A stretch of DNA of 64,000 nucleotides from Eremothecium cymbalariae DBVPG#7215 (taxonomy: Eukaryota; Ascomycota; Saccharomycetes; Saccharomycetales; Saccharomycetaceae). Where the stretch lies: the NCBI RefSeq assembly GCF_000235365.1, contig NC_016455.1, forward strand, positions 620,001 to 684,000, given 5' to 3'. The translations under genes were made by a program, and so were the position numbers. The notes beneath the pieces are model-generated. The model searched no databases. It saw only the letters and a program-made list of their open reading frames with translations, and was not told where the DNA came from. Positions 22,388 to 58,223 of the stretch are shown piece by piece; position 1 is the stretch's first letter, and the number at the start of each line of letters is the position of its first letter.

Positions 22388-22972
22388 GTCTTTGGCTACC
22401 ACCACACACACTTATACAACTGGCCATTCCTCGGCCACTCCTACCAACCGTCACCCCCCCTCCCCCCTTTGCAAGCCGCAGAATAGAAAAACATTTCTAG
22501 CTATGTAATATACGAATACTGTTCCATTTCTGCCGTCCACTACATCCTCCCCTCCACGCACTTCCACATATACCTCTCTGGCTTCCACCACTAAGTAGAG
22601 TCTCGTGCTTAGTAATTAACCTTTCCATGGAGGACTCGACTTTAGGGGAGCCTGAGGGATTCAAAAAGCCTGGGGAGCGCAACGAGAGGAGGAGGGGGAC
22701 ACACATTTAGTAAGTCATAATATAAATAAATATTATTTGATGTTTTGTAGCAAGTACCAACCACAAATCACCGAGAGGTAACAGCCGTGAGCTTTAAACT
22801 TATCTGTGCTCTTGACATAAATACAGGTATCGATTGGCAAGCTCCTCCTCTTCAGTCGCCGGTTATTCGACTTTAAAACATAAAGACGAGTTACCCTGTT
22901 TTTGTTATCATAGAATAACGCTCAGAAAAAGCTTCATAGTACCAAAACGCCATTGACATTAACAGTAAGAAG
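22388..22972. other. Intergenic SMC1-BLM10
   Basis: 585 bp. A C/T-rich tract (CACCCCCCCTCCCCCC) lies at about 22452-22468, with further pyrimidine-rich stretches to 22570. No gene was seen. I did not find a clear PACE (Rpn4) element. Confidence 0.55.
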
Positions 22973-25900
22973 ATGGATGTTAATAAGTTAGAGGCTCCTA
23001 TACCGCTTAAAAATAGGAGGATAGCAGAGTTAGGAATATCCGAGATGAAATTAACGAGATCCAGCTCTAGCTCGGATAATCTATGTGCCAAAAGAGCTAA
23101 ATTGTTTAATAATTTAACTAGTGGTTTTGCCACTGGTGGCATGCAAAGACCTCGATCCGCCACCCCAGTTCATCATGAACCATTTAATACTATATCCGAA
23201 GATGTATTAGGAAAACGATTAGAACATTATAATCTAGACTACGTCTCTGATTATCAAGAGCATGAAAGGAATATTTACGATCCAGAATCTAAATGGTTCA
23301 GTAGGCAAGTAAAGCCGAAGCTTCCCTTTGAGGCTAATCTGCCGTACGTTACTGAGAGTCATAAAGAACAGGCAAAGTACTTATGTCATATCTTGGTGAA
23401 CTTATATATTGCGATCAGCTCTCTGGATATCCAAGGTTTGATTTCCATTACTAGTAAAGACCTAGCCGATTTCAAGAAGGATGTTGACGACTTAGCTCTG
23501 CATACGGATCTCTTCAGGTTGACAGCGGAAGAAGATGTCGAGCTGAATGACATAAGTAATTTTGACGAAGACGATGACGATGAAGAGGATGCTAGTCAGG
23601 ATGGGTATGATGGGCAGGATTATGATTTTTCTGGGCCAGATTTTGGCCCTTCTGGCCGAATCACTGCGAAGTCTTCTACTGTCATTAATGTTAACCATTG
23701 GACAAATGAATTAAAGAACTGCTTGCATTTCGATTTTCCTCTCAGCGTGCGCAAGTCTTTGGCAAATGTTTACTATCATTTGTCATTGGTTCAGGGGCAG
23801 AAGATTTATAGGCAAATGCATGTGAGCATGTTTGAAAGTTTGGTTTCGGAGGACGATTCCGGGACTAATTTCACAGATTTATTGCTGCAAAAGGGTTTGA
23901 AGTTAGATTATAATCCAATGTTGGAATTTCTTGCAGAATTCTTGCCTTGTACTGAATCAGATTATGTGAGATATGATATTTCATCAAAGACAGACCTTCA
24001 GTTGTTTAGATTATTACTAAAGTTAGCACATCAATCCAAGGTGTTCTACGATCAGGATGATAAAGAACTTTTACAAAATACAATGGACAGATTTATCATT
24101 AGCTTCAGCCCGCAGACTTTGTCTTGTGTGTTACCGATTATCACATCTTTCGTTCCCTATCATTATCAAGAAGATCGTAATGTGATTGATTACTTCCCAT
24201 TTATGTTTAATATATGGGCATCTACGTCTGCTACAATGGTATTTGATACTCATTTATACGATTTCGTCGGTTGTGTCGCACAAGATGCCCATTCTAAAAT
24301 GATTAAGGAAGAATCTGGAAGGATTGTGAGGGTTTCTGGAATCAACTTTGGGCAGCATGGTATCTTTACCGAGGATCAGTTCAACTTTATTTTGAACAGG
24401 ATACAGAACCACTTGAGAGATGATTACCAAATCCATTCCTACTCGAGAGTTGTTAGGCCTTTAATATATTCCATAAATGGTTCATATAGTGACCACTTTT
24501 TTAATAAGTTGGCCCCACTAGTTAAGAGTATAATGACCTTCGTTCACCCCTCTAACAATGGCCAGTGGACCAAAGTCATAGCAAAATTTGTGCATGGTGT
24601 GATTAAAATGTACCATGCAAGGTGGGTTAGTGAACAAAAGTTAACTAACGGATATAGGAAAAATATATGGCTAACAGAAAAATCGCATGCACAAATGGTA
24701 GACTTGTTTTTGGATATCTTAATCGTCGGATCCCAAAATAAAGACTCAGATATGGCTAACTACTATATTTCCAGTTTTGCATATCTTTTGGATGTTCGTC
24801 CCAGCAATTCATACAAAATTATCGATCGGGTACTAGTTGATTTCTACGACTCTATGACAGATCAATTTGTTCATTCAGTGCATCGTGGTATCACCTCGTT
24901 AAAACAACTAACTAGGATTGTTAGGTACATGGTTACTGATCGTTTGTACAGGGTTCACATAACCAATATACTTTCAATGCTAGTCTCCAAAATCAAGGCC
25001 AATGATATTAGTCTGACTAGCAATACCATTAATTCTATCGTTTCTATCTGTACCTTTATTCCTTTGGATAATTTTGTTGAAGAGGATGAATTTTTAGCTT
25101 TTGAATCCCATACCATCCCATTTATACAAGAACATATCTTCTTTTTAAAGGATGGAGGAAATTCTTCTGATTTCAAGTACAGTGAAGAAGTTTTGGAACA
25201 CGCGTTTAGAGCTTCAACGACTGAATATGAAAATATTCTTAAGATTTATATTGATAAGTTGTTTCAGATGGTTGACGCCGACTTGGAAGATGGTATAGTT
25301 ACAAAAATTAACCAAACTTCCATGATTATGATGGAATCCATGTCTGATAAAATATTTGCTTACTTTACGGAGCTTCTGTCGAGGACATTCTGGGGTAACG
25401 ATGCCTTTAAGGAGAGTAATCCTAATTATGAATTAATTACAATTCCTCTTGGTGCAGCGGTGAGAAGAAACCCTAACTTGAGCAAGAAGTGGTTTGCTGA
25501 ATTAGATTACAACATTAGAGACCAAGTCGAAAGAGGGGCTGGATCTGTAAGAAGTTCTTCAGAAATTCAACGGCGTGATGTCAAATTAGTTGCTTATTTG
25601 ACTGCACTTAATGACATTATCAGACAGGCTCATGAGGCTATGATTGAATACAAAATAGAATTGGTAGAACTTTTAAAATTTATGTTCAATAACATTTCCA
25701 ATCCTCCTTTGGATGTCATCAGCTCTATGGTACTTCATTGTTGCTTGAGTAGCTTAATCAATATAGAAATCACTGAGTGTAGGTTATTCCCAGAAAATAC
25801 ACAGATTCCAAAATCGGACAGGTGGGGTGGTTTACAATTTGATGATCGTAAATATGATCCGGAACATACCCAATTTAAGTGGCATGTTCCATCAAGTGAT

Positions 25901-28900
25901 GAGGTAGATTTTGCGATTTCTCTACTGGAAACTTTCAGCACTCAGTACATGTTGAAGGCAGAAAAAATGATGGAGGCCCCCATTCGCCATTCTTCATACA
26001 TTGATGAATTAAAAAAGTGTATATTGGTTATCACACATACATTATCAGGTGCCTCACTTTTATTCGATCCAGACTTTAACAAAGATAGAAGTGATCCGCA
26101 GATACTGGACCCTTATAAAAAGAAGTTTTTGCTTTTAAAACAGCTACGGGCAAAAAATTGCGATGATCATGAATTGGTGCTGGATATTGAACAAATTAGG
26201 GATGAAAGTCAACAGGATGAAATTGATATTGTTGTTAATGATGAACTTGATCAGGCGCTTGATGGGATTCAAATCAAAGATGATGATGCTACGGCTCATA
26301 TGGAGGACCTCGACCTTCCGAATGTTGGTGACGACTCTAGTGTTCCTTCCGGTGTTGCTACGCCTGCTCCGGGCGGACATTTAGATGATACAACATCTGC
26401 AATGAACTCTTCTATTGCGTTTAGAGATCTAGAGATATTCACATGTCGCTATTTCTTTGGAAATACGACTGAAGAAAAGTTGAAGGATGAAAGATATATT
26501 AAAGTTCACGCTATTAGATCTAATATTGGCAAGTTTTTCCATACCCTTTTCAAATTTTTGAGTAGTAATTTCAGCGATAATCCTGGAATTTTCCAAATTT
26601 TGTTGCACGGTATGAAAGTTTGGTTTACAGATGTTGGCCAGGAGACGATCTTCAAAGACGATCCCGATTCTTTCTTGGATCTAGAGTTTTTAGAAAATCT
26701 TCAAAGTTTGGCTCATTCTATTTCTGAACCTTATACAAGAACTTATTTTGCAGTTGATCTTCATTCTCACCATGATGCTAGAGTTCTGTTACGCTCAACA
26801 AACCGTGTTCCATCTAAATTGGAGACGACATTGATGAAGGATGTAATCGATTTAGCTCTCTCTGTCTATCCTGATATTCACAAGCCAGCTCAGGGATGCA
26901 TGGTTCACGCCATGAAACAATTGATAGGATCTTACTCCCTAACTATCAACAGGGTAATTAAAGAGTTTAAAAGTGCTCTGCAGACTGAGCACTATAGGAA
27001 GATTGAAGTTCTTTTGGAGGTGCTCTTCACAAGAAAGCTTCATAGGAAGCTAATGTCCGATTATAAGAATTTAGATGAAATAATTTCCCTTCTACTTCGT
27101 GCTTGCAAAATAAAACACTTAGAAGTTGCTGTGTTTGCTGATAAGTTGTTGAATTCAATTGCTTCATCTTTTAAAATACCATCTAGTGTTTGTGTGATTA
27201 ATGAGAAAGAAATGGAGGTTTTGAATCCTGGTGATATTTCTATTACGTTGCAAGTGGATGTTGTCAAAAAAGCAAAAGCTAATAAAAGGGATTACTACTT
27301 TTCTCTTATATCAAATTTGGAAGAGAAGTTGATAAAATATTTGAAAGAAGATTCAGATCCTGGTTGGAAAATACCAATATTTATCATTAAGTTCATTTCC
27401 AGAATTCAGTCATGTTTGGAATTCAAGGCAGATGTTAGAGTCCTAAAGGAAATCTTTTTGTTGACTAAAACAAAGCATCCAACTATCATTCATTTGGCAG
27501 TGAACAACTTTGTCAATATTTGCAATAAGATACAGTCAGTTGGCGATTATGATTATGATATTACTAAAGCCTATTTGCCAACGTTCAGACGGAGGTTCAT
27601 AGAAACTATAGATACCTCAGACCCAAAATTCGGTCATTCCTTTCGAAAGGAGATGTCCAACTTTGAAACTCCAAACTATTTCATCGATTCGGTTGGCTAT
27701 GTTGGTTGGATGGCATGGGGAATCCCGCTACAGGTAGTTAAGACTATAGATCAAATTAATATGAATTTGAACGCAGAAGATTTTCAGGTTTTAAAGGAGT
27801 TTGGTGAATTAATAAATATCACTTGGTTGCGTGAATTAACCACACTTCTAATCCAAGATAATGAAACCAAAGGGATGTTTAGCAATAGCAACGTTTCATT
27901 CTTCGCTTTAGTAAACTTGTTGATTTCGAACCACATTTGTGGGGTGTCATACGATGAACTGCTTGATTTGTGTCGAAAACTATATGACAAGAATGACAAG
28001 GCATCTATGATTATGTCCATTGAAATTTTTGCTGGGTTGTTAACTTCCACAAAGTATACAACAAAGGAAAATTTGAAAAAGCGTTCCAAGTTCCTTACAG
28101 AGTTTCTAAGCTTTTGTCTAGATAAGGAACTTAACCAAGACTCTGTCGATATTTGGAACATATTGTGTTGGTGGTTACCGACATATGTTGATGTTAGAAG
28201 ATTTCAGCCCCTATTCAACAAGTTGGTCACGGATGGTACTGCTTTAGATAAAGATTCCGATTCTTCAGCCGACCAGGCTTCAAAGCTTGTACTTCTAAGG
28301 AGCATTCTAACAGTTTTAGAATTCAGAGCACCCGATTTGGAAGATATGTTTACAAAGTTAGTGCTTGACCATCCATACGACCAGGTTCGCCAGGAAGTTG
28401 CCAAAATGTTGGGTACCTTGATCCAAACACGAATTAGCCCTTCAGCCAGTAGCGTTGATGAATTGTTAGTTCTAAGTAAAGGCCAACATTTGAAGAAGCT
28501 TCCTAAAGTGTTCCAGTCGCATATATGCACAATATATGAACTGATTGAAAATGAAAGAAACAAATTGGACGGTTTATCCCCTCAAGATATTTTGAAAACA
28601 AAGTACTATTATATGGCATCTACAATGTTGTATTGGATTGCACACACCATGAAGGGACCCAACCAGCTAATTTTAGTTCCTTATGTCAACAAATGCATCG
28701 CGCCGTTTTTGCTCAAGTTACAAAAGATGAGGGACATGTGCAAACTGGCTAACATTTCCCCAGCATCCTTCTACATCGCGCTTTCATATATCCCTTTAAA
28801 AAGGGATGAAGTACCTTGCTTCGTACAACTGCTAGACAAAACCGACTTCACTAGCTCTAATGAGATTCGAACCCAGCTATATTTTGCTGAAAATTTGTAT

Positions 28901-29427
28901 TCCCATCACATGTTACAGCTGTCTTCCGAAGACAGAGACAAAATTCTAAAATTTGTGGTCGACAATATCTACAACGAAAACTACGTGGAGGTCAGAATAC
29001 GTGCCTCTGAAGTCTTGTCTGGAATAGTCCACAACTTCAACGAAGACGAAAAACTCCTCTCATTGATTGATATGTTCACCCAACGCTTGGGAGCCTACTC
29101 CTCTGAAAAGGCAAGAACAAAAAAGACAAACGCTAGATCAAAAAAAACCCTTCAAACGATCTAGTTACCCACGGTTCCATCATTGGCCTCGGCGCAATCA
29201 TCTCCGCCTTCCCTTACGTCTTCCCCCTCCCCTCCTGGATACCCAAACAACTCAGTAACCTAGCATCCTGGACAAGATCTAGTGGTATCCCCGGCATTGC
29301 CGCTAAAGATATCATTAGCAACTTTAAAAAAGTTAGAGCGGATACCTGGCATCTGGACCGTGATGAATTCACCACAGAACAACTGGATGATCTTGAAGGC
29401 GTCCTCTGGAGAAGTTATTACGCCTGA
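22973..29427 (+). CDS. BLM10: Blm10, proteasome activator (PA200), with a -1 frame change near the 3' end
   Basis: The first frame codes for 2063 aa of HEAT-like repeat protein similar throughout to S. cerevisiae Blm10 (YFL007W, 2143 aa). An acidic patch (DEDDDDEEDASQDG) lies near residue 200 and a second acidic linker near 1130. The frame ends at a TAG at 29162-29164. The -1 frame then continues the family C-terminus without a gap: THGSIIGLGAIISAFPYVF, KKVRADTWHLD, and the final LWRSYYA before TGA at 29425-29427. One extra base in the A8 run at 29140-29147 gives 2151 aa. Blm10 caps the 20S core. Its last residues (Tyr-Tyr-Ala, an HbYX-type motif) insert between alpha subunits and open the gate, so the product of the first frame alone would lack this function. 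It could be a sequencing error, a real indel, or frameshifted expression (see findings). SEC4 follows as in YFL007W-YFL005W. Confidence 0.95.
29140..29147 (+). other. A8 run where the BLM10 reading frame shifts by -1
   Basis: In the incoming frame the codons are TCA AAA AAA ACC, so the run contains the slippery heptamer A_AAA_AAA. The -1 frame has a stop at 29134-29136 and the 0 frame a stop at 29162-29164. The change must therefore happen between them, and this run is the only homopolymer there. Confidence 0.9.
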
Positions 29428-36397: not shown

Positions 36398-39028
36398 TTA
36401 AAAATTAAATCTTTTAACAAAGTTCTCCTGAATTGCTTTCAAGGAGTCTAATGAAAAGTCTTCTGATGATTTGATCTTCGATAGAAGAGCAACAAGATAG
36501 TGAATTTGTCTTACTTGAACCACCCTCCCCTGGTATTCCAAGGACTCTTCAGTAGTTAGAAGGCTATTTGTAGTTTTCTTACGAGCTGTAGAGATTGAAT
36601 TGGCGAGCTCACAGGCTTCCTTAATGATCTTCGGTGGGAATAATGATTTCACAACCCTTAAACCATAATTTTTAATGTGGTCAAACTCATTAGTTATCTT
36701 ATAAGTCATTTTTAAAGCATCGGTTTCATCGAGAGTTGTTGACATATGCAAATGAACAACAGTTGGCCTACTTGACATTATCTTAGCTATGTCATTAAAG
36801 TGTGTGGTGAGAAACACAGTGCAGTTTTTTTGCACCAAATGCTCCGTTATAGCTAACGATATGGCAAACCCATCGCCAATGCTTGAACCCCTACCTAACT
36901 CATCAATAATCATTAGCGTTTTATCATCAACATCATGCAAAAAGTAGGCCATTTCTTTCATTTCAGCTGCAAATGTTGAGGAATTCAATTCAAGCGGATC
37001 ATTACAAACACGAGCATGTATTTTGGTGTATAAAGGAAAACAAGCATACTCAGCCGGAATAGGGCAACCAATCTGTGCCATAATATTCAACAAGGCAACT
37101 TGCTTTATGTACACAGACTTACCGCTCATATTGCATCCCGTAATAATTTGTATTGATGAAGAACTCTTGGTACAAACAATATCATTAGGCACATAATCAT
37201 CAATTACAGTCGACAGGATAGGATGTCTAGCACCCTTAATGAGCAATGCATCAGAAAATTCAGGTACAATTGCATTCGTCTCTGAACCATACTGGGCAAA
37301 CGAACAAAGCAAGTCAAGGATTGAAACGGCTTCTGCAACCATAAATAATACAGCGATATGCTTGACGGTATCATTAAGTAAACGTTCAACCAACTGGTCA
37401 CTCATCAATAAGATTTCAGACATTACTTCATTTAAACGAGCGTTTAATTTTACCACATGCATTGTGGTAAATTCAATCATATTTTTCTTTTGGATCCTGT
37501 TGATGAAAGTTGGGTGTAGGTCAGAGGTAGATACTTCGGTTCGTTTAACTTTCATAAAGAAGCCTCTGGACGAATCGTAACCGTAATCTATATTCATATG
37601 ATGGTCCTCAGATAGCTTGGACACATACTCATAAACTTCATCAATAACCTTCTTATACAGCTGCCGTAGGACATCAAGCAAACCATTTGATCCGCTTCGT
37701 ACAGCATAAATCATTTGATTTTGATGTTCTAGATCAGTTGTAGCCAATGTACAATCTTCATTTATATGGTCGTTTATTAACTCTTGAAGATCGTTCAGCA
37801 CAGTTCCAAAAATATTTTCCTTTATCTCCTGCAATAAAGAAGCCTTCAATTGACTTTCCTCAAGTAGACTCTTAATTTTCTTGGAAGAAGCAAACGAATC
37901 CTTTAAAGATATGGCATAATTAATTCTATGTTTCTGTTTAATGGCACCATGATTAACGGATAATAGCATACAGTATAACACGTCCAAGTCCTGTACCGTT
38001 TTAAGTTCACTTCTAAGAGAACGTAGCAAGTCAGGGTTAGCTTGTAATTCAACGACTGCCTCAAAGCGCATTTTTATAGTATTAGCATTCGACAATGGTT
38101 GCAATATATTGTTTCTTAGCGCGCGTTGTCCTGGCTTAGTTACAGTTCTATTCAAATGTTTAAAGAATGACAATCCATTTTTTTCAATTAAATTTGAGAC
38201 TAACTCTAAGCCCCTAATAGTACGTGGGTCGATGAGCATTGTATTTTCAGTCCCCTCATAACGAATACGGAAGTTTCTAAATTTGTAATGGTGGCTTGTT
38301 TCATTGGAATACTGTGTTACGTAACGTGCAGCAGCAGATGTTGCACAGAGGCCAAACTTCTTGCCGGTAAACTCTTCAAGGCAGGAAACTTTTTCAGAGT
38401 GTGGAAAAAGACCATAATGTTCTACAGCTTTCAAACCGTCTTTAGCGTTAAAATATTTCACAGTGGCCTCACTCACTTTTACCGACTCGGGGATATTGAA
38501 TTTAATCAAAGTAGCTAATTTGGAAACTTTGGGTGATAAAGATACACTTGGAAGTATAATTTCAGTTGGCTGATGGATTTGAAGCTTATGTAAGGTTCGG
38601 ATGAAGATCTGAGAATCCATGAATTCTGATATAGTCATTTCACCAGTAGTGTAATTTATAATACACATCCCAACCCTGGTATCAGCATCCTTCGCCGATT
38701 CAAATATGCTACAGACAACTTTCTCCTGCGCCACAGGAGCACCAGGCGCAGTAGAAACAAACTTCCGACCTTTCGTACCCGTAGCAGCACTCCTTCTAGT
38801 ATTACCAGAAACTCTAGACAATACATTTGAAAACCTGGATTCAAGTAATTGAGCACTGGTTGCCACGGATCTACTACGATTCTGAGAAACTGAAGACTTA
38901 TGACTCAACTTCTGTTTACAAATCTTCCCATTGGCGTTGCCATCATTTGTGCTCAACGAACCCTGAGTAGTAGACGAATCAAAACACCACCCTCCAATAA
39001 AACTAGAGCTGTTATTACTGTTGCTCAT
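36398..39028 (-). CDS. MSH4: Msh4, meiotic MutS homologue
   Basis: 876 aa (S. cerevisiae Msh4, YFL003C, 878). It lacks the mismatch-recognition N-domain of Msh2/Msh6, as Msh4 does. Residues 1-110 are a Ser/Asn/Arg-rich tail, followed by connector, lever/clamp and ATPase domains. The ATPase has Walker A GCNMSGKS (631-638), Walker B LMIIDELGRGSS (D709, E710) and the TTHF switch. Msh4-Msh5 clamps Holliday-junction precursors and promotes class I crossovers in meiosis, so this yeast probably keeps a ZMM pathway. The first 14 bases overlap the end of HST2 on the same strand, so its promoter must lie inside HST2. Confidence 0.96.
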   Translation of the reverse strand: MSNSNNSSSFIGGWCFDSSTTQGSLSTNDGNANGKICKQKLSHKSSVSQNRSRSVATSAQLLESRFSNVLSRVSGNTRRSAATGTKGRKFVSTAPGAPVAQEKVVCSIFESAKDADTRVGMCIINYTTGEMTISEFMDSQIFIRTLHKLQIHQPTEIILPSVSLSPKVSKLATLIKFNIPESVKVSEATVKYFNAKDGLKAVEHYGLFPHSEKVSCLEEFTGKKFGLCATSAAARYVTQYSNETSHHYKFRNFRIRYEGTENTMLIDPRTIRGLELVSNLIEKNGLSFFKHLNRTVTKPGQRALRNNILQPLSNANTIKMRFEAVVELQANPDLLRSLRSELKTVQDLDVLYCMLLSVNHGAIKQKHRINYAISLKDSFASSKKIKSLLEESQLKASLLQEIKENIFGTVLNDLQELINDHINEDCTLATTDLEHQNQMIYAVRSGSNGLLDVLRQLYKKVIDEVYEYVSKLSEDHHMNIDYGYDSSRGFFMKVKRTEVSTSDLHPTFINRIQKKNMIEFTTMHVVKLNARLNEVMSEILLMSDQLVERLLNDTVKHIAVLFMVAEAVSILDLLCSFAQYGSETNAIVPEFSDALLIKGARHPILSTVIDDYVPNDIVCTKSSSSIQIITGCNMSGKSVYIKQVALLNIMAQIGCPIPAEYACFPLYTKIHARVCNDPLELNSSTFAAEMKEMAYFLHDVDDKTLMIIDELGRGSSIGDGFAISLAITEHLVQKNCTVFLTTHFNDIAKIMSSRPTVVHLHMSTTLDETDALKMTYKITNEFDHIKNYGLRVVKSLFPPKIIKEACELANSISTARKKTTNSLLTTEESLEYQGRVVQVRQIHYLVALLSKIKSSEDFSLDSLKAIQENFVKRFNF

Positions 39029-40046
39029 CCTTCTTATTTTCCTTATCCAAATCTAGATTACGAACTTTTTCCGTAATAGCAAAAAGTTCCTTATCCTCCT
39101 TGGTACTACACAAACCACCCTCGTCAATAACACTCTCTGTAGGCGTCTTGTTACTTTGGTTCTTACTTGTCTTTACACTGGTTGTCTTTTGTTTTGAATC
39201 CTGTTTGCCGCTGATCCTCATCAACTCATCAAACCAACCAAGATCACGTGCTATTTTTTCCGCGAATTCGTCCGCCGTACCTTCTAAGATTATGTCCGTC
39301 TCCCTTGGATTATTCAGAAAGTCACCAACAGGATCCATGTTGATAAGGGCGCGTGGTAAATGCTCTGGTACATCTTCTGGCAATGCAGCAAATGGATAAA
39401 CCATTAGCGAAGTCCCAGCAACAAAGACCAAGCACTGGTCTTCAGATTGCAATGCTTCTTTGTCTTTGTCCCAAGAATCGTAGAACTCATCAGGCAATCC
39501 TTCACCGAAGAATACAATCTTAGGCTTTATTAACCCCTTACAACTAGGACACTTGGCATATCCCTTATCCTCTTCCAAAACTTTTTTGAAAAGTTCCATG
39601 GGAAACTCCTTATTACAATCAATACAGTGATTTTTGCGGAAGGAGCCATGTGCCTCAATGATATACTCATCTTCGATACCAGTTGCACTTTCTAACGTGT
39701 CGATATTTTGGGTATAAACTCTCTTTAAACGTCCTTTCATATGAAACAATCTCATAAAGTAGTGAAATAGCGATGGTTTGAAGTTCCCAGGGTATAATCC
39801 CTTAGCCAAAGTATAGAATGGTTTTTGATTTTCTCTGAAGAAGTTAATTTCAAATATTGCTTCTGCAAAGGGCAAATTGAACTTTGAGACGTTATCATAT
39901 AAACCAACACCTGGGGTGCGGAAATCTGGAATCCCACAGGACGTAGATATACCAGCACCAACCATAAACATCACCTTACATTTGGGATGGTCATTCAAAT
40001 ACTTTACTATTCTCCCAATGTCCTGATATTCCTTCTTGCCAGACAT
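39015..40046 (-). CDS. HST2: Hst2, cytoplasmic sirtuin NAD-dependent deacetylase
   Basis: 343 aa from the ATG at 40046. The frame extends 11 codons upstream without an ATG. S. cerevisiae Hst2 (YPL015C) is 357 aa. The Rossmann-fold NAD site has GAGISTSCGIPDFR (30-43) and QNID (113-116). The catalytic base is H133 (EAHGSF). A Zn ribbon uses C141, C144, C166 and C169. The C-terminal tail of about 60 residues is Lys/Thr/Asp-rich and divergent, corresponding to the autoinhibitory region in the S. cerevisiae enzyme. It deacetylates histone H4K16 and other substrates and is exported from the nucleus. The stop overlaps the MSH4 start by 14 bp. Confidence 0.96.
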   Translation of the reverse strand: MSGKKEYQDIGRIVKYLNDHPKCKVMFMVGAGISTSCGIPDFRTPGVGLYDNVSKFNLPFAEAIFEINFFRENQKPFYTLAKGLYPGNFKPSLFHYFMRLFHMKGRLKRVYTQNIDTLESATGIEDEYIIEAHGSFRKNHCIDCNKEFPMELFKKVLEEDKGYAKCPSCKGLIKPKIVFFGEGLPDEFYDSWDKDKEALQSEDQCLVFVAGTSLMVYPFAALPEDVPEHLPRALINMDPVGDFLNNPRETDIILEGTADEFAEKIARDLGWFDELMRISGKQDSKQKTTSVKTSKNQSNKTPTESVIDEGGLCSTKEDKELFAITEKVRNLDLDKENKKDEQQ

Positions 40047-40079
40047 GTTAAAGGTTTTTTCTTTCGGATATGTTCTCAA

Positions 40080-40928
40080 ACACCACCATTAGCTGTTATA
40101 AACTGATCTAATGAATAATCTGATCTAATGAGTAAACTGGTTGCTTTAAATATTTTTCTAGTACATAGCAAATATAATTTTTCAAGATTGATAGATAAAA
40201 CTGTCGCACATATCTTTACAGCCAGAAATCTGAAAAATTAGCATTTTTCGGGAAAAACAACGACCTCGGTGAGGATTGAACTCACGATCTTGCGATTAAC
40301 AGTCGCACGCCTTAACCAGCTTGGCCACGAAGTCGGATACTGGCTTCAGTTAGTGTTCCGCAGCAACATGTTTAACAATAATAGTCACGTGGTCTTCTAT
40401 CACGTGTTTAATGAGATTTAATCAAAAGACGAATGATATATAGTATGTATATATGGTGGACTGCTTTGTGACAACAGAACATAATATAGAAAATAATATA
40501 GAATCATCTTGTTTTATTTAAGCTTAGCAACTTCGAGGGTAACAATTAGTTGCTTCACTATGACCATCTTGACCTTGTTTATTAATCAATACCGTTCCGG
40601 TATGTGAGGTTATTTTCTATTGTGGGTGTTGAAATTTAACTTTTAATGTTAACCCAATTGTTCAATTCCATCCAGATTTTGTACAAGTTAAGAATATGGA
40701 AGTTTGGAGCGGTATTCACCTGCTGCATCTCTCCGAATGTCATATCATGTAAAATATATATATCTCATAATATAAATATGAGCGACTTAAGCTTTTGTGT
40801 TTATTGTGAACAGTACTGCTCAGGATGAGGCCGGTCTTCTGATTATCAATATTTCAAAAAAACGCTTAGAGAAACTCTATCTTCAACTTCGTAGACATAT
40901 AATAAGGCTCGAGAAGCAGCAGCTAAAT
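40080..40928. other. Region between divergent HST2 and RQC2 holding a tRNA gene
   Basis: Contains tRNA-Asn (40261-40334) and two CACGTG boxes at 40386-40391 and 40401-40406, 15 bp apart. AT-rich sequence follows to the RQC2 start. This is also one border of the inverted TAE2-CIP1 block. I see no LTR or transposon remnant. Confidence 0.6.
40261..40334 (-). tRNA. tRNA-Asn (GTT)
   Basis: On the minus strand, 74 nt without an intron. The 7-bp acceptor stem pairs GACTTCG with CGAGGTC (one T-G) and a discriminator G. The D-arm carries the A-box-like GTGGCCAAGCTGG. The anticodon loop CTGTTAA gives anticodon GTT. The T-loop TTCAATC fits the B box. Nearly identical to S. cerevisiae tRNA-Asn(GTT). A run of five T on the minus strand (plus 40253-40257) a few bases after the 3' end is the Pol III terminator. 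Confidence 0.97.
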
Positions 40929-43900
40929 ATGAAGCAAAGATTCAGTTCATTAGACCTACAAATATTAGGTAGAGAGTTAAAGGAGGCCCTTGAAGGTAGC
41001 AGGTTGACCAATATCTATAATATTGCCGATTCAAACAGACAGTTTTTGTTGAAGTTTAGCGGTTCAGAATCGAAACTAAATGTAGTAATTGATTGTGGAT
41101 TAAAGATTCATATAACTGAATTTTCGAGGCCAATACCCCCCTCCCCTTCTCCATTTGTTTCAAAGTTGAGAAAGCATTTGAAATCAAAGAGATTAACAAC
41201 GGTGAAACAAATTGATAATGATAGAGTGCTAGTATTCAGCTTTTCTGAGGGTATGTATTACCTTGTGTTTGAGTTCTTTGCTGCTGGAAATGTTATTCTA
41301 TTAGATGAACACCGTAAGATTTTGTCACTACAACGAATTGTTAAGGACTATGACAATAAGGTGGGTGAGATGTATGAGATGTTTGATGATCATTTTTTAG
41401 AGCATACAGAATTCTGTGTCCCAGAGGTCCGGGTACACACCGCTGATGAAATTATGCAGTTGTTGAAGGTGGCTCGGGAAAAGGTTACCGCTGATGCTTC
41501 TGGATCAGCTGTAGTCAATGCTGCAGAGGGCAAACGAAAGGTGAAGGTCGCTTCTATTCACAAGCTATTGTTTACATCGATGCCATATTTATCTAGTGAT
41601 TTACTCTCAAAGAGTTTAAAGAGTAATGGGATTGATCCATCAAGTCCTTGTTTCGAAGTTGAGAGTAAAGTGGAAACTATTGTGGCGTTATTAAATGAAA
41701 CAGAACGAGAAGTTCACCATTTGTTGAGTAATCCTAGTCAACGTGGGTATATTGTTGGTCACATCAATCGGTTATACGATAAGGAGAAAGACACTGAGGA
41801 TATGAAACACTTATATGAGCAATTCCATCCTTTTTCTCCATTTATCTCCACAGCTTCAACCAAAGAGTTGGAAGTGTTTGAAATTGAAGGTAACTACAAC
41901 AAAACAGTAGATAAATATTTTTCAACTATTGAGTCAACAAGGTATGCTTTACGAATCCAGTACCAAGAAGACCAAGCAAGAAATAAGTTGGAAAAGGCTA
42001 AAACGGAAAATGAGAAAAAGATCCAGGCATTAGTTGATGTCCAACAAACCAATGAGCAGAAGGGACATTTAATAATTGCTAATGCAGACCTGGTAGAAGA
42101 AGTCAAACAGGCTGTGCAAGGATTAATTGATCAGCAAATGGATTGGACTACTATTGAAAAGCTAATCCAAAGCGAACAGACGCGAAAGAATAAAGTTGCA
42201 CAATATATCAAATTGCCATTGAAGTTGAAAGACAACAAAATTAGTTTGATGTTGCCACTTCCAAAAGATGATATTGGTAGTTCATATGAGAGCGATAGAA
42301 TTCAATCAGGTAGTGATTCTGAATTTACAGATAGTGATGAATCTATTTTTACTGACGTCTCTGAGTCTCAGTATGAAGAATCATACAATGAGACTCGAAA
42401 GAAAACAAAAAGCTCTCGAAAACCATCAGAAATGGCTGAAAAAAAACTGTTACAGTCACAATAGACCTTGCTTTATCAGCATATGCCAATGCATCCAATT
42501 ATTTTGATATTAAAAAGACAAGTGCTAAGAAGCAAATAGGTATGGAGCAGAATGCTCAACGTGCGATGAAAAATATTGAACATAAGATTGAAAAGGATCT
42601 AAAGAAGAAGCTAAAGGAACAACATGATGTACTTCAAGTGATTAGAACGCCTTTTTTCTTTGAAAAGTATTACTGGTTCATTTCTAGTGAAGGATTTCTT
42701 GTAATTATGGGTAAGAGCGGTTTGGAAACGGATCAAATCTTCAGCAAATACATTACAGATAATGATATATATGTTTCTAACAGTTTTGGATCTCAGTTAT
42801 GGATCAAAAACCCGGAAGGTACTGAAGTACCACCAAACACTTTGATGCAGGCGGGCATTTTTGTCAATTCAGCCTCAGAAGCCTGGACCAAAAAAATCGC
42901 AACGTCCCCTTGGTGGTGCTTTGCTAAATATTTGACCAAGTTCGCTGATATTGATGGATCACTTTTGCCATCCGGTGCATTTAGCTTACGAGATGAATCG
43001 AATAAGAACTTTTTGCCTCCTTCTCAATTAGTCATGGGTATAGCATGCATGTGGAAAGTGAAGACCGACGATGAGGATGTTCAAGATGAGGCTGAAGGTG
43101 TAGGTGAATACATTCACGAACCTCAAGATGAAAATAATTCAAAAAGTGATACTGAGGAAGAAAAGCCTGTAATGCTGCAACCCGATGCTCAAATTTCGAA
43201 CTCAGAAGCAGCAGCAGCTGAATTGAGTGCTACCAAAGTGTCCAAAGAAATAAAAAATAACACTGAGACCAGTGTTAGTACTGAAGATGCAGATGCAGCA
43301 AAGGCTAATTGTGATACAGATTCAATTGCGGTTTCTATTATTGAAAACATGAACAAGAAAGTCCGCGGCAAGAAGGGGAAATTAAAGAAAATGCAAAAGA
43401 AGTATGCTGATCAAGATGGGGAAGAAGTTATGTTAAGGCTCCAAGCTTTAGGTACTATCAAAGGTATTGTAAAACAACAAAAGCAAAAGGAGCTAGAAGT
43501 AACCAAGCAGCAGGAAAGAGAAATGAAAAAAAAAAGGAAACAGAAGCAGCAACAGCAGATGGCTTTAAAGTTTACAGAATATGAGAAAGTCAACGTTAAC
43601 TATGCCAAAATATTTAACGAATTAAAGCCCGTAATTAGCAATGAAGATGAGGTAGTAGCTGCAATTCCACTGTTTGCACCATGGCCCGCTTTGGCCAAGT
43701 ATAAATATAAGGTCAAAGTCCAGCCAGGCAGTTCAAAGAAAACCAAAAGCATAAATGAAGCGCTTCATTATTTCCAAAGAATTGTTGATGAAACTGGAGA
43801 AGACAAAGAAGCAGATTCGTCTATTGAACATGAACACATCAAAAGATTTAAACCGCAAGATTTCATTCCATTGATATCTGTTGATAAACTTAAAGTAACT

Positions 43901-43966
43901 ATTCCCGGATCTGCTGATTCAAAAGATTCCAAAAATAACTCAAAGAACAAAGGCAAAAGGAAATGA
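40929..43966 (+). CDS. RQC2: Rqc2/Tae2 (NEMF), ribosome quality control CAT-tailing factor, with a -1 frame change in the middle
   Basis: The ATG at 40929 gives MKQRFSSLDLQILGRELKEAL, matching the S. cerevisiae Rqc2 (YPL009C, 1038 aa) start. Order: NFACT-N (about 1-190; NIYNIADSNRQFLLKFSG), helix-hairpin/coiled-coil arm (to about 480), NFACT-R (RTPFFFEKYYWFISSEGFLVIMGKSGLETDQIFSKY), acidic linker and NFACT-C near the end. The first frame stops at TAG 42462-42464. From the A8 run at 42439-42446 the -1 frame continues the family sequence (VTIDLALSAYANASNYFDIKKTSAKKQ) to 43966. One extra base gives 1012 aa. Rqc2 binds split 60S subunits with stalled peptidyl-tRNA, recruits Ltn1 and directs Ala/Thr tail addition. 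A coding run of ten A near 43525 is in frame. Confidence 0.95.
42439..42446 (+). other. A8 run where the RQC2 reading frame shifts by -1
   Basis: The incoming codons are GAA AAA AAA CTG, again containing the heptamer A_AAA_AAA. The -1 frame has TGA at 42437-42439 and the 0 frame TAG at 42462-42464, so the change is confined to about 25 bases that begin with this run. Confidence 0.9.
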
Positions 43967-54813: not shown

Positions 54814-55734
54814 CTATTTAAAATCCACTCCAATTACACCAACTCCTCCTCCTTGTCGGTCTTCTGTGCTTCTTTAACCTTTGTATATTCTAATTTCCTG
54901 TGGCAATCCTTTGCTTCTACACGCACTCTTCTGGCTTAACAAATTGCTAGGTAGAAAATACTCTCATAATAGCCATAACAACGTGAAACCTGCTGCAACG
55001 TTATACCACACCAGCATAAAGGCAACTCATCCGATCCTGGGATTATCTTCCTTCTTTTTGTTGAGCGTATTTCCATTTTGATATAATTAATTAAATTTCT
55101 TATACTATCACCACCATTTAAGCGGCTTAACCAAACCATATGGGATGGGCTCCGAGAATTTTCTCGAAAAAGGAATATAAGTAAGTCACGTCATCTCAAA
55201 AGGATGTGGTGTGGGTTTAATGGGGCCAAAGGCCTAGTTATGCCCAGTCGCGACTGTTGTTTCCCATGAGAGGAACATAGGGCTAGCCAGATGGGCAATA
55301 CTTGGTTAGTTTCTAGATTTAGTGCTGGTTGCAAGCTTCGGGAAAGTACAACGCTGCAGTTGAAGAGGTGCGTTTGAGACCTCTTGTGGTTGTATATGGC
55401 TAGATTTGTGAGGGGAGAGCTGGAATGAAGATATCAGAGTAGAGGCACAGGGCACAGTGTGTGAACTGCGCCTTTCTGGAAGAGGTCAAAACTTGTTTCC
55501 TGTGAGAAGTACGGCACAGGACACGAGAGAACAGAGAGAGAGAGAGACTAGAGGAGTCTTTAAAGCAGCAGCAGCATGTTTTGGTCCACATGACGATGAC
55601 GAAAAGCTGTTAAGAACGCGTCATGTTATACGTTTGGTAATTGAACAAAGATGGGTAATAGTTGGTAGGTTTCATCACGTCTCGATATGAAAGGATGCGT
55701 CTGTTGAAGAGGTTTTATTTTGTAATATACACAT
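54814..55734. other. Divergent promoter between the membrane-protein gene and CHL1
   Basis: 921 bp. An ACGCGT MCB box lies at 55616-55621. A purine-rich GAGA tract lies at about 55525-55550. No gene was seen. Confidence 0.6.
55616..55621 (+). promoter_or_regulatory. MCB element (ACGCGT) upstream of CHL1
   Basis: AACGCGTC lies 114 bp before the CHL1 ATG and fits the MBF consensus. MBF control would be consistent with a cohesion-establishment helicase needed in S phase. Confidence 0.6.
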
Positions 55735-58223
55735 ATGGAGCTTTCCCGTGAGGTAGGCATGCAGTACCATGACTTCCATCATCCGTATACTCCGTACAGG
55801 ATTCAGCTTCAATTGATGCAGCAGATATATGATTTGCTGGAGAGCGACAAGAAGCTAGGGATATTTGAGAGTCCTACAGGGACGGGGAAGACACTGTCAT
55901 TGATATGTTCTACGGTCACTTGGTTAAGAGAACATAAGGCAGAATATTCTCGTTTGGAGGAAGGCGGCGGAGATAAGATAGGATATGGGGGTGGGTCGGA
56001 GGAGGAGGAGGAGGATGAGGAGCCTAGTTGGGTGAGAGCGTCATATGCGAAGTCGGTTCTTGGAGAGAAGGCAAGACAGTTTAAGGATTATGAAGAGTAC
56101 CTTGGCAAGTTGGATACGCAGCCGATTTTTATGGATAAAAGTTTGGAAAATGTAAAGAACGCGAAGAAGCGCAGGATTGGCCAGCCTCGATTGGAGGTGG
56201 CTCTCGATGAAGGTCAGGATGTTGAGTTTGTGCTCGACGCCTATCATTCAGATTCAGAGGATGCAGTTTCACGTTCTGGGTTAAGTATTGATGATAAAAG
56301 GTCAAAACTAGATTCTGAAATAAAGGCGTTGCTGCATAAGATAGAAGGCAAGGATGATGATGATCCAGTGAAGTCTATTGAGATAAACAACCCACTGAAG
56401 ATATATTTTACATCGCGGACTCATTCTCAGTTGATTCAGTTTGCGTCACAGATGAGATTGCCAAAGTTTCCACCATCTTTTAGCGAGCTGGAGGAGGAGC
56501 GGATTAAGTTTCTTCCCTTTGGATCTCGCAAGCAGCTCTGTATACATGAGAAGGTTTCTAAACTTAAATCAAACGTTATCAATGATGGATGCATGCATGC
56601 AGTGAATAAAAAAGAATGTGCACATTATCTTAATGCTAGGGATCCCCGGACGGCAAAACAATTTAGAGATTATACGTTTAGTGCCATTCATGATATCGAG
56701 GATTTACTTAATATAGGGAAGACTTTAAATGCATGCCCATACTATTCATCTAGAGAGTTTGTGTCTAGTTCAGAAGTTATCAGTCTTCCGTACCAGCATT
56801 TACTTCTGGAAGAAGCAAGGAATACATTGGGAATTGAGTTGAAGGATGCCATTATAATTATCGATGAGGCTCATAATCTTATAGATACTATAAATTCCCT
56901 ATACAGTGCATCTGTATCTCTTGTAGAATTAAAACAATGTCGTCTAGCCCTGAAGGCGTATTTAGCAAAGTTCAAAACCCGTCTGAATAGTGGTAATAGG
57001 GTGAATATTTTGAAGTTGAATAAAATGATTGATGTTTTAATTCAATATATCGAAAGCAACTATAAGAACGGGAAACAAATTGATGATCCAAATGAAATTT
57101 TTATGAATACCAACGCAGATATTATCAACATTCACAAATTGAATAAATATATGAAGGTATCCAAGATCGCATTTAAGGTTGACAGTTATATACAGGCAGC
57201 GACTCAAGAATCTGAAGATGGCAAAAATCCAAGACAGCCAATATTATTCAAGGTGGCAGCTTTTTTGAAAACTTTGACCAATCCATCTAAAGAGGGTCAG
57301 TTTTTTTTGAAAAGGGTCATATCTTAAAGTACATGTTATTGGAGCCTGGTGAAGTTTTCAAAAGTATAATCGCACCTGCAAAGTGTGTTATATTAGCTGG
57401 AGGTACCATGGAACCTCTATCTGAATTCTTCAATACTTTAGTTCCGCATATTTCCACTTCGGATATAGTCAAATTTTCGTGCGAGCATATAATTCCTGAT
57501 GACAATCTGAATACTTTCATCGTAGGGGGGAATTTTGAGTTTGTATTTGATAACAGGGAAGATAAATCCCTCATCCTTGAACTGTTCAATTTTGTTTATG
57601 AATTATCTCTTAGGGTAAGGTCTGGGATGGTTCTATTCTTTTCCAGTTATAAATATTTGGCATTTGTTCTCAGTATTTGGAAAGAAATGGGTTTATTCCA
57701 AAAACTAGCAAGTGTAAAAAGAATATTTTACGAAACTGTTAATAGTAATGATGTATTAGCTGAATATTCAGATACAATTCAGATACAGCAGAAAGGAGCA
57801 ATCCTGTTTGCTGTTGTAGGTGGTAGATTGTCTGAAGGCATTAACTTTGAAAATGATTTAGCAAGGGCAGTTATAATGGTGGGGCTTCCTTATCCAAACC
57901 TTTTCAGCGGTGAACTGATCGTCAAGCAGCGTCACATAAAACACAAAATAATGCTTAAAGGCGGCTCGCAGGAAGATTCCTTTGTAGCAACTCGAGAATT
58001 GTATGAAAATATATGCATGAAAGCTGTAAATCAATGTATTGGACGTGGGATTCGACATGCGAATGACTATGCAAATATCTACCTAATCGATAAAAGGTAT
58101 TCCACAGAACGTATTAAAAATAAACTCTCGAACTGGATTCGAAAGAGAATCCAACCAGATACCTCTATACCGTCAATTTTGACCAAAACAGCCGTTTTTT
58201 TTGATAAGAAGAGCAAATTATAG
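55735..58223 (+). CDS. CHL1: Chl1 (DDX11/FANCJ-type) Fe-S DNA helicase, with a -1 frame change in the middle
   Basis: The first frame (530 aa) and the second (from the T8 run to 58223) together cover S. cerevisiae Chl1 (YPL008W, 861 aa). One extra base gives 829 aa. Walker A is SPTGTGKT (46-53), the DEAH box is DEAH at 377-380, and the four Fe-S cysteines appear as KQLCI, GCMHA, ECAHY and NACPYY. The second part has the XPD-family motifs LAGGTMEPLSEF, GGRLSEGINF, VGLPYPN and QCIGRGIRHANDYA. The shift lies at 57301-57308, in the conserved EGQFFFEK ... KYMLLEP segment. Chl1 acts with Ctf4 and Eco1 in sister-chromatid cohesion. As read, the first frame would stop at 57325-57327 and lose helicase domain 2, so expression of active enzyme needs a frame change or a corrected sequence. 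Confidence 0.95.
57301..57308 (+). other. T8 run where the CHL1 reading frame shifts by -1
   Basis: The incoming codons are CAG TTT TTT TTG AAA. Re-reading one T gives TTT GAA AAG, which is the family sequence. The -1 frame has TAA at 57288-57290 and the 0 frame TAA at 57325-57327, confining the change to about 35 bases around this run. Confidence 0.9.

Follow-up and report, generated by a model that had tools for sequence, protein, structure and literature searches.

Slippery heptamers of the form X_XXY_YYZ underlie programmed −1 ribosomal frameshifting, for example in the L-A virus of yeast. Chromosomal genes whose single protein is read from two frames are also known, among them EST3, ABP140 and OAZ1 and their A. 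gossypii orthologues, the +1 frameshifts of these three being common to S. cerevisiae and A. gossypii; in the part of the A. gossypii re-annotation that deals with such cases, eight genes are given as translated across frameshifts, seven of them by +1 and one by −1 (PMC3737163). Sliding on consecutive lysine AAA codons has been described in an E. coli system, in which, according to the part of the study drawn on here, little sliding occurs at A9 and A10, sliding is robust from A11 onward and two AAA codons are usually translated without sliding; the same text tabulates 4858 AAA-AAA pairs for S. cerevisiae (PMC4363877). In an earlier 454 study (GS 20), more than 97% of errors are reported at homopolymer runs, 79% of the homopolymer errors being insertions and more than 95% of the runs being of A/T (PMC1564139, in part). 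As far as its sequencing section is concerned, the genome of E. cymbalariae DBVPG 7215 was obtained from one million 454 GS FLX Titanium reads at 40x, with fosmid end reads, primer walking and PCR products used for scaffolding and gaps, and was published as eight chromosomes of 9.7 Mb with a mean identity of 60% (PMC3276169); a GC content of 40% is given elsewhere for this species (PMC3737163, in part).

The window analyzed here, a stretch of 64,000 nucleotides, sits on contig 7 of this genome. From the letters of the sequence, an RQC2/TAE2 gene had been predicted in it that is split by a −1 frame change at an A8 run, and the run, the TAG at 42462-42464 that closes the first frame and a −1-frame TGA at 42437-42439 all check out. 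At the run, the first frame reads GAA AAA AAA CTG. The −1 relation between the pieces holds as well: from 42440, the −1 frame stays open up to a stop ending at 43966, encodes 508 amino acids and contains VTIDLALSAYANASNYFDIKKTSAKKQ. Across the two pieces, NFACT-N, NFACT-R and NFACT-C all exceed the Pfam cut-offs, as is expected of the Rqc2/Tae2/NEMF family, and both the domains and the matches to the yeast protein support the proposed identity. Judged from these matches, the two pieces are a single gene cut in two, beyond chance, since the upstream piece matches Rqc2 from S. cerevisiae over residues 1-500 (E 9e-160) and its downstream counterpart does so over residues 503-1037 (E 1.1e-160). 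A profile search with PF05833 gave a single match in the genome (8 contigs, 9,669,424 bases) and a genome search with the downstream half also gave a single match, indicating that RQC2 is present as one copy. The coordinates of this gene and of the other genes discussed below are collected in Table 1.

Table 1. Split RQC2/TAE2 gene and other genes examined for frame breaks. Positions are those of the window unless a locus (L) or contig (C7) handle precedes them.
Feature	Position	Strand	Details
RQC2/TAE2 upstream piece, NFACT_N	40929..42464	+	first frame, ATG to TAG
A8 run, site of frame change	42439..42446	+	
RQC2/TAE2 downstream piece, NFACT-R and NFACT-C	42440..43966	+	−1 frame, without internal stop
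A10 run in RQC2 downstream piece	43526..43535	+	frame intact
BLM10	22940-29427	+	open frames 22940-29164 and 29137-29427; A8 at 29140..29147; −1
CHL1-like DNA helicase	55726-58223	+	open frames 55726-57327 and 57291-58223; T8 at 57301..57308; −1
RPT6, 26S proteasome ATPase	L019:2810-4041 (C7:592810-594041)	minus	overlap holds C8 (gene strand); −1
TTI1	L011:5026-8147 (C7:515026-518147)		overlap holds A6; −1
YFH7-like P-loop kinase	L017:4350-5422 (C7:574350-575422)	minus	overlap holds G6; −1
eIF4G-like gene	C7:588976-592388 (L018, L019)	minus	two apparent +1 breaks, one at A8 run
FMP27/Hobbit-family gene	L003:340-8239 (C7:430340-438239)		apparent +1 break near T5 run
Sir2-family gene and MutS-family gene	36398-40088	minus	open frames overlap at 39015-39052

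When the protein joined across the junction was aligned with its relatives, no residues were missing just before the conserved VTIDLxLSAYANAS strand. Identity to the A. aceri protein is 60% over residues 1-430, 32% over residues 431-506 and 65% over residues 507-1012, so that the junction falls within a poorly conserved linker (residues 431-506) and the downstream half, which has no further stop, is conserved as well as the upstream half. Conservation of the run was assessed at the protein level, as a proxy, with 67 aligned relatives (P0001-P0067) taken among the matches listed (120 of 193 found). By this proxy the A8 site is not conserved: KK was present at residues 505-506 in none of the 67 and anywhere within residues 499-513 in 21 of them. 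The four best-scoring relatives, three of which are named Ashbya or Eremothecium, carry VNKT, SNKS, GPDT and SLET in place of the EKKT of the window and therefore, by this alignment, do not share the two AAA codons. The joined protein is 58-60% identical to two Ashbya proteins. For this form, no near-identical database entry was present among the matches listed (best identity 60%), nor for the upstream piece among the 16 proteins found, and public annotation of RQC2 therefore gives no guidance.

Breaks of the same kind were sought across 264 kb of this chromosome (20 loci plus the window; GC 0.404) by scanning for long open frames with coding signal that continue directly in another frame of the same strand. 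The scan returned 41 rows, among which RQC2 ranks second by score. Nine rows, representing eight genes, were picked by eye from the 41 and accepted as splits after reading the proteins; among the 32 dropped rows, 31 were discarded on their position in the table alone and one, at 39015-39052 of the window, was inspected and rejected as a split gene, as it consists of two neighbours, a Sir2-family and a MutS-family gene. The names CHL1, YFH7 and eIF4G are those that we presume for the respective genes, the other names following Pfam or PDB labels. Six of the nine breaks, all of them −1, have homology on both sides: RQC2, the CHL1-like gene, BLM10, RPT6, TTI1 and the YFH7-like gene. In the CHL1-like helicase, DEAD_2 lies before the break and Helicase_C_2 after it (junction 57291-57327). 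In BLM10, a proteasome activator, BLM10_N and the middle HEAT region precede the junction (29137-29164), whereas PSME4_C and the C-terminus of yeast Blm10, that is, the last 96 residues ending in YYA, lie in the second frame. The RPT6 break separates the AAA core from the lid and the C-terminus of yeast Rpt6, and that of the YFH7-like kinase separates residues 1-112 from residues 126-353 of the yeast structure 2ga8. Genome searches with the downstream pieces revealed no second copy of RPT6, the next match being only 41% identical, and none of TTI1, for which a single match was obtained. As RPT6 and TTI1 are both essential in S. cerevisiae, their breaks are most simply explained as sequence errors. 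Less firmly supported are the two eIF4G-like breaks, which rest on coding scores and, for the middle piece, on a match to MIF4G (no homology match was found for the outer pieces), and the FMP27 break, for which only the downstream part has a Pfam match.

In confident coding pieces, runs of eight lie in a break in 5 of 17 cases, as against 0 of 39 runs of seven and 13 of 2833 runs of four to seven. Fisher tests yield p = 0.0016 for eight versus seven and p = 3e-8 for eight versus four to seven, values that, like the counts, hinge on the choice of the nine rows by eye, and 4 of the 12 unbroken runs of eight, being no more than about 21 bases away from where a coding piece ends, are possibly not truly internal. 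In 20,000 draws of random coding stretches of 27 bases, the size of the RQC2 overlap, a run of at least eight occurred at a frequency of 0.0027, and hence the coincidence of the RQC2 break with the A8 run is unlikely to be due to chance. Random coding stretches sized as the five junctions with runs of eight contain such a run at frequencies of 0.002 to 0.015. Ten further long runs were inspected by eye; those at the ends of coding pieces look like ordinary gene ends or a gene start, and in the remaining ones coding does not clearly continue.

Taken together, these data suggest, with a probability of roughly nine in ten, that the RQC2 split is an assembly artefact caused by an error in homopolymer length. 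The break coincides with a homopolymer, an A8 run inside a 27-base overlap, and similar breaks occur in five other genes; because homopolymers of all four bases are sites of such breaks in unrelated genes of the same assembly, and because 454 was the platform of the published genome, pyrosequencing may well have misjudged the length of the RQC2 run, the true length of which would then differ from the assembled one. The original prediction had already regarded a simple indel or sequencing error as the more economical explanation, and the breaks at runs in the five other genes lend it support. Some observations tell against the artefact reading. The FMP27 break and the first eIF4G break go in the +1 direction, with no run longer than five, and the break rate does not rise smoothly with run length (0 of 7 runs of nine or ten and 0 of 39 runs of seven lie in a break), although the numbers are small. 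Also, the likeness to the errors described for 454, namely that frame breaks concentrate at homopolymers in several unrelated genes, is incomplete: in the GS 20 data the errors are mostly insertions and the runs mostly A/T, whereas here each of the six well-supported breaks looks like a run whose length was under-called and two of them are at C/G runs, and this difference in error type argues against a simple transfer from that study, as far as its error section goes (PMC1564139).

The other explanations have to be weighed against this one. The main rival, a genuine slip by one base in the A8 run that broke RQC2 in this strain and left a truncated protein, appears improbable. Long A-runs do mutate readily, and a recent loss of this single-copy gene would be tolerable, given that RQC2 is dispensable in S. 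cerevisiae; however, neither half carries any other stop, both are conserved as expected, and RPT6 and TTI1 show the same class of break, which makes breaks in this assembly a poor sign of gene loss. A small intron across the junction that restores the frame is the least plausible of the alternatives: one YTRAC-like branch sequence is present at 42352, but GTATGT, GTAAGT, GTACGT, GTGAGT and TACTAAC are all absent from 42100-42560, with an acceptor upstream of 42440 translation would meet the −1-frame TGA, and the cross-junction protein aligns with its relatives with no residues missing beside the conserved strand.

Slippage of either the ribosome or RNA polymerase by −1 on A_AAA_AAA, whether programmed or tolerated, would yield the full-length protein and could include feedback by Rqc2 itself, yet this seems very unlikely. 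As in frameshifting of the L-A virus type, the heptamer stands in the right form and phase (GAA AAA AAA), and the first-frame stop lies nearby, 16 bases past the run. Joining the two pieces gives a seamless protein. RQC2 differs from that type in that it shows neither a predicted stimulatory structure nor conservation, a lysine pair in the corresponding position being absent from all 67 of the aligned relatives, and in that the same break pattern is found elsewhere at C, T and G runs. Folds of four stretches downstream of the A8 run, computed with a program that predicts no pseudoknots, were no better than shuffles (z-scores −0.27, −0.23, −0.04 and 0.34), and the same was true for one stretch upstream of it. 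Within RQC2 itself, an A10 run keeps the frame. In the sequence scanned, A_AAA_AAA is common, with 16 first-frame sites in 86 long open frames, a count that includes the RQC2 site and may count long runs more than once. Compared with sliding on AAA codons in the E. coli system, RQC2 shares consecutive lysine AAA codons but has only an A8 run with two of them, which in the part of that study used here is normally read without sliding, A11 being needed (PMC4363877). Like EST3, ABP140 and OAZ1, RQC2 would give one protein of a chromosomal gene from two frames; nevertheless, those frameshifts are shared between species and seven of the eight listed genes use +1, and AGL017W, which a protein search names as the A. 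gossypii orthologue of RQC2, is not among the eight frameshifted genes named in the re-annotation (PMC3737163). Among the literature titles listed on Rqc2 together with frameshifting, poly-lysine or autoregulation, on a programmed frameshift in TAE2 and on frameshifting in E. cymbalariae, none concerns this site.

The original prediction had further raised the idea that the slippery A-run might serve as an autoregulatory device of Rqc2. This idea finds no support, as unrelated neighbours break in the same way whichever of the four bases makes up the run, no RNA structure above shuffles was detected, the site is not conserved and the A8 run is shorter than the threshold for sliding in the E. 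coli system. That the A8 run is real and that E. cymbalariae makes full-length Rqc2 only through −1 slippage, as a species-specific quality-control feedback, is a most doubtful proposition, still less probable than slippage in general. If it were true, the output of Rqc2 would track the behaviour of ribosomes on A-runs, the protein sensing slippage on its own message; nothing found points to this. Most likely, the RQC2 split is an ordinary one and not a self-regulating frameshift, and under the preferred reading, an error in homopolymer length, the living organism would carry one continuous RQC2. For this assembly, it follows that resequencing is needed before a frame break at a homopolymer is taken as a programmed frameshift or a lost gene, because even the gene for a core proteasome ATPase, of which no second copy was found, looks broken.
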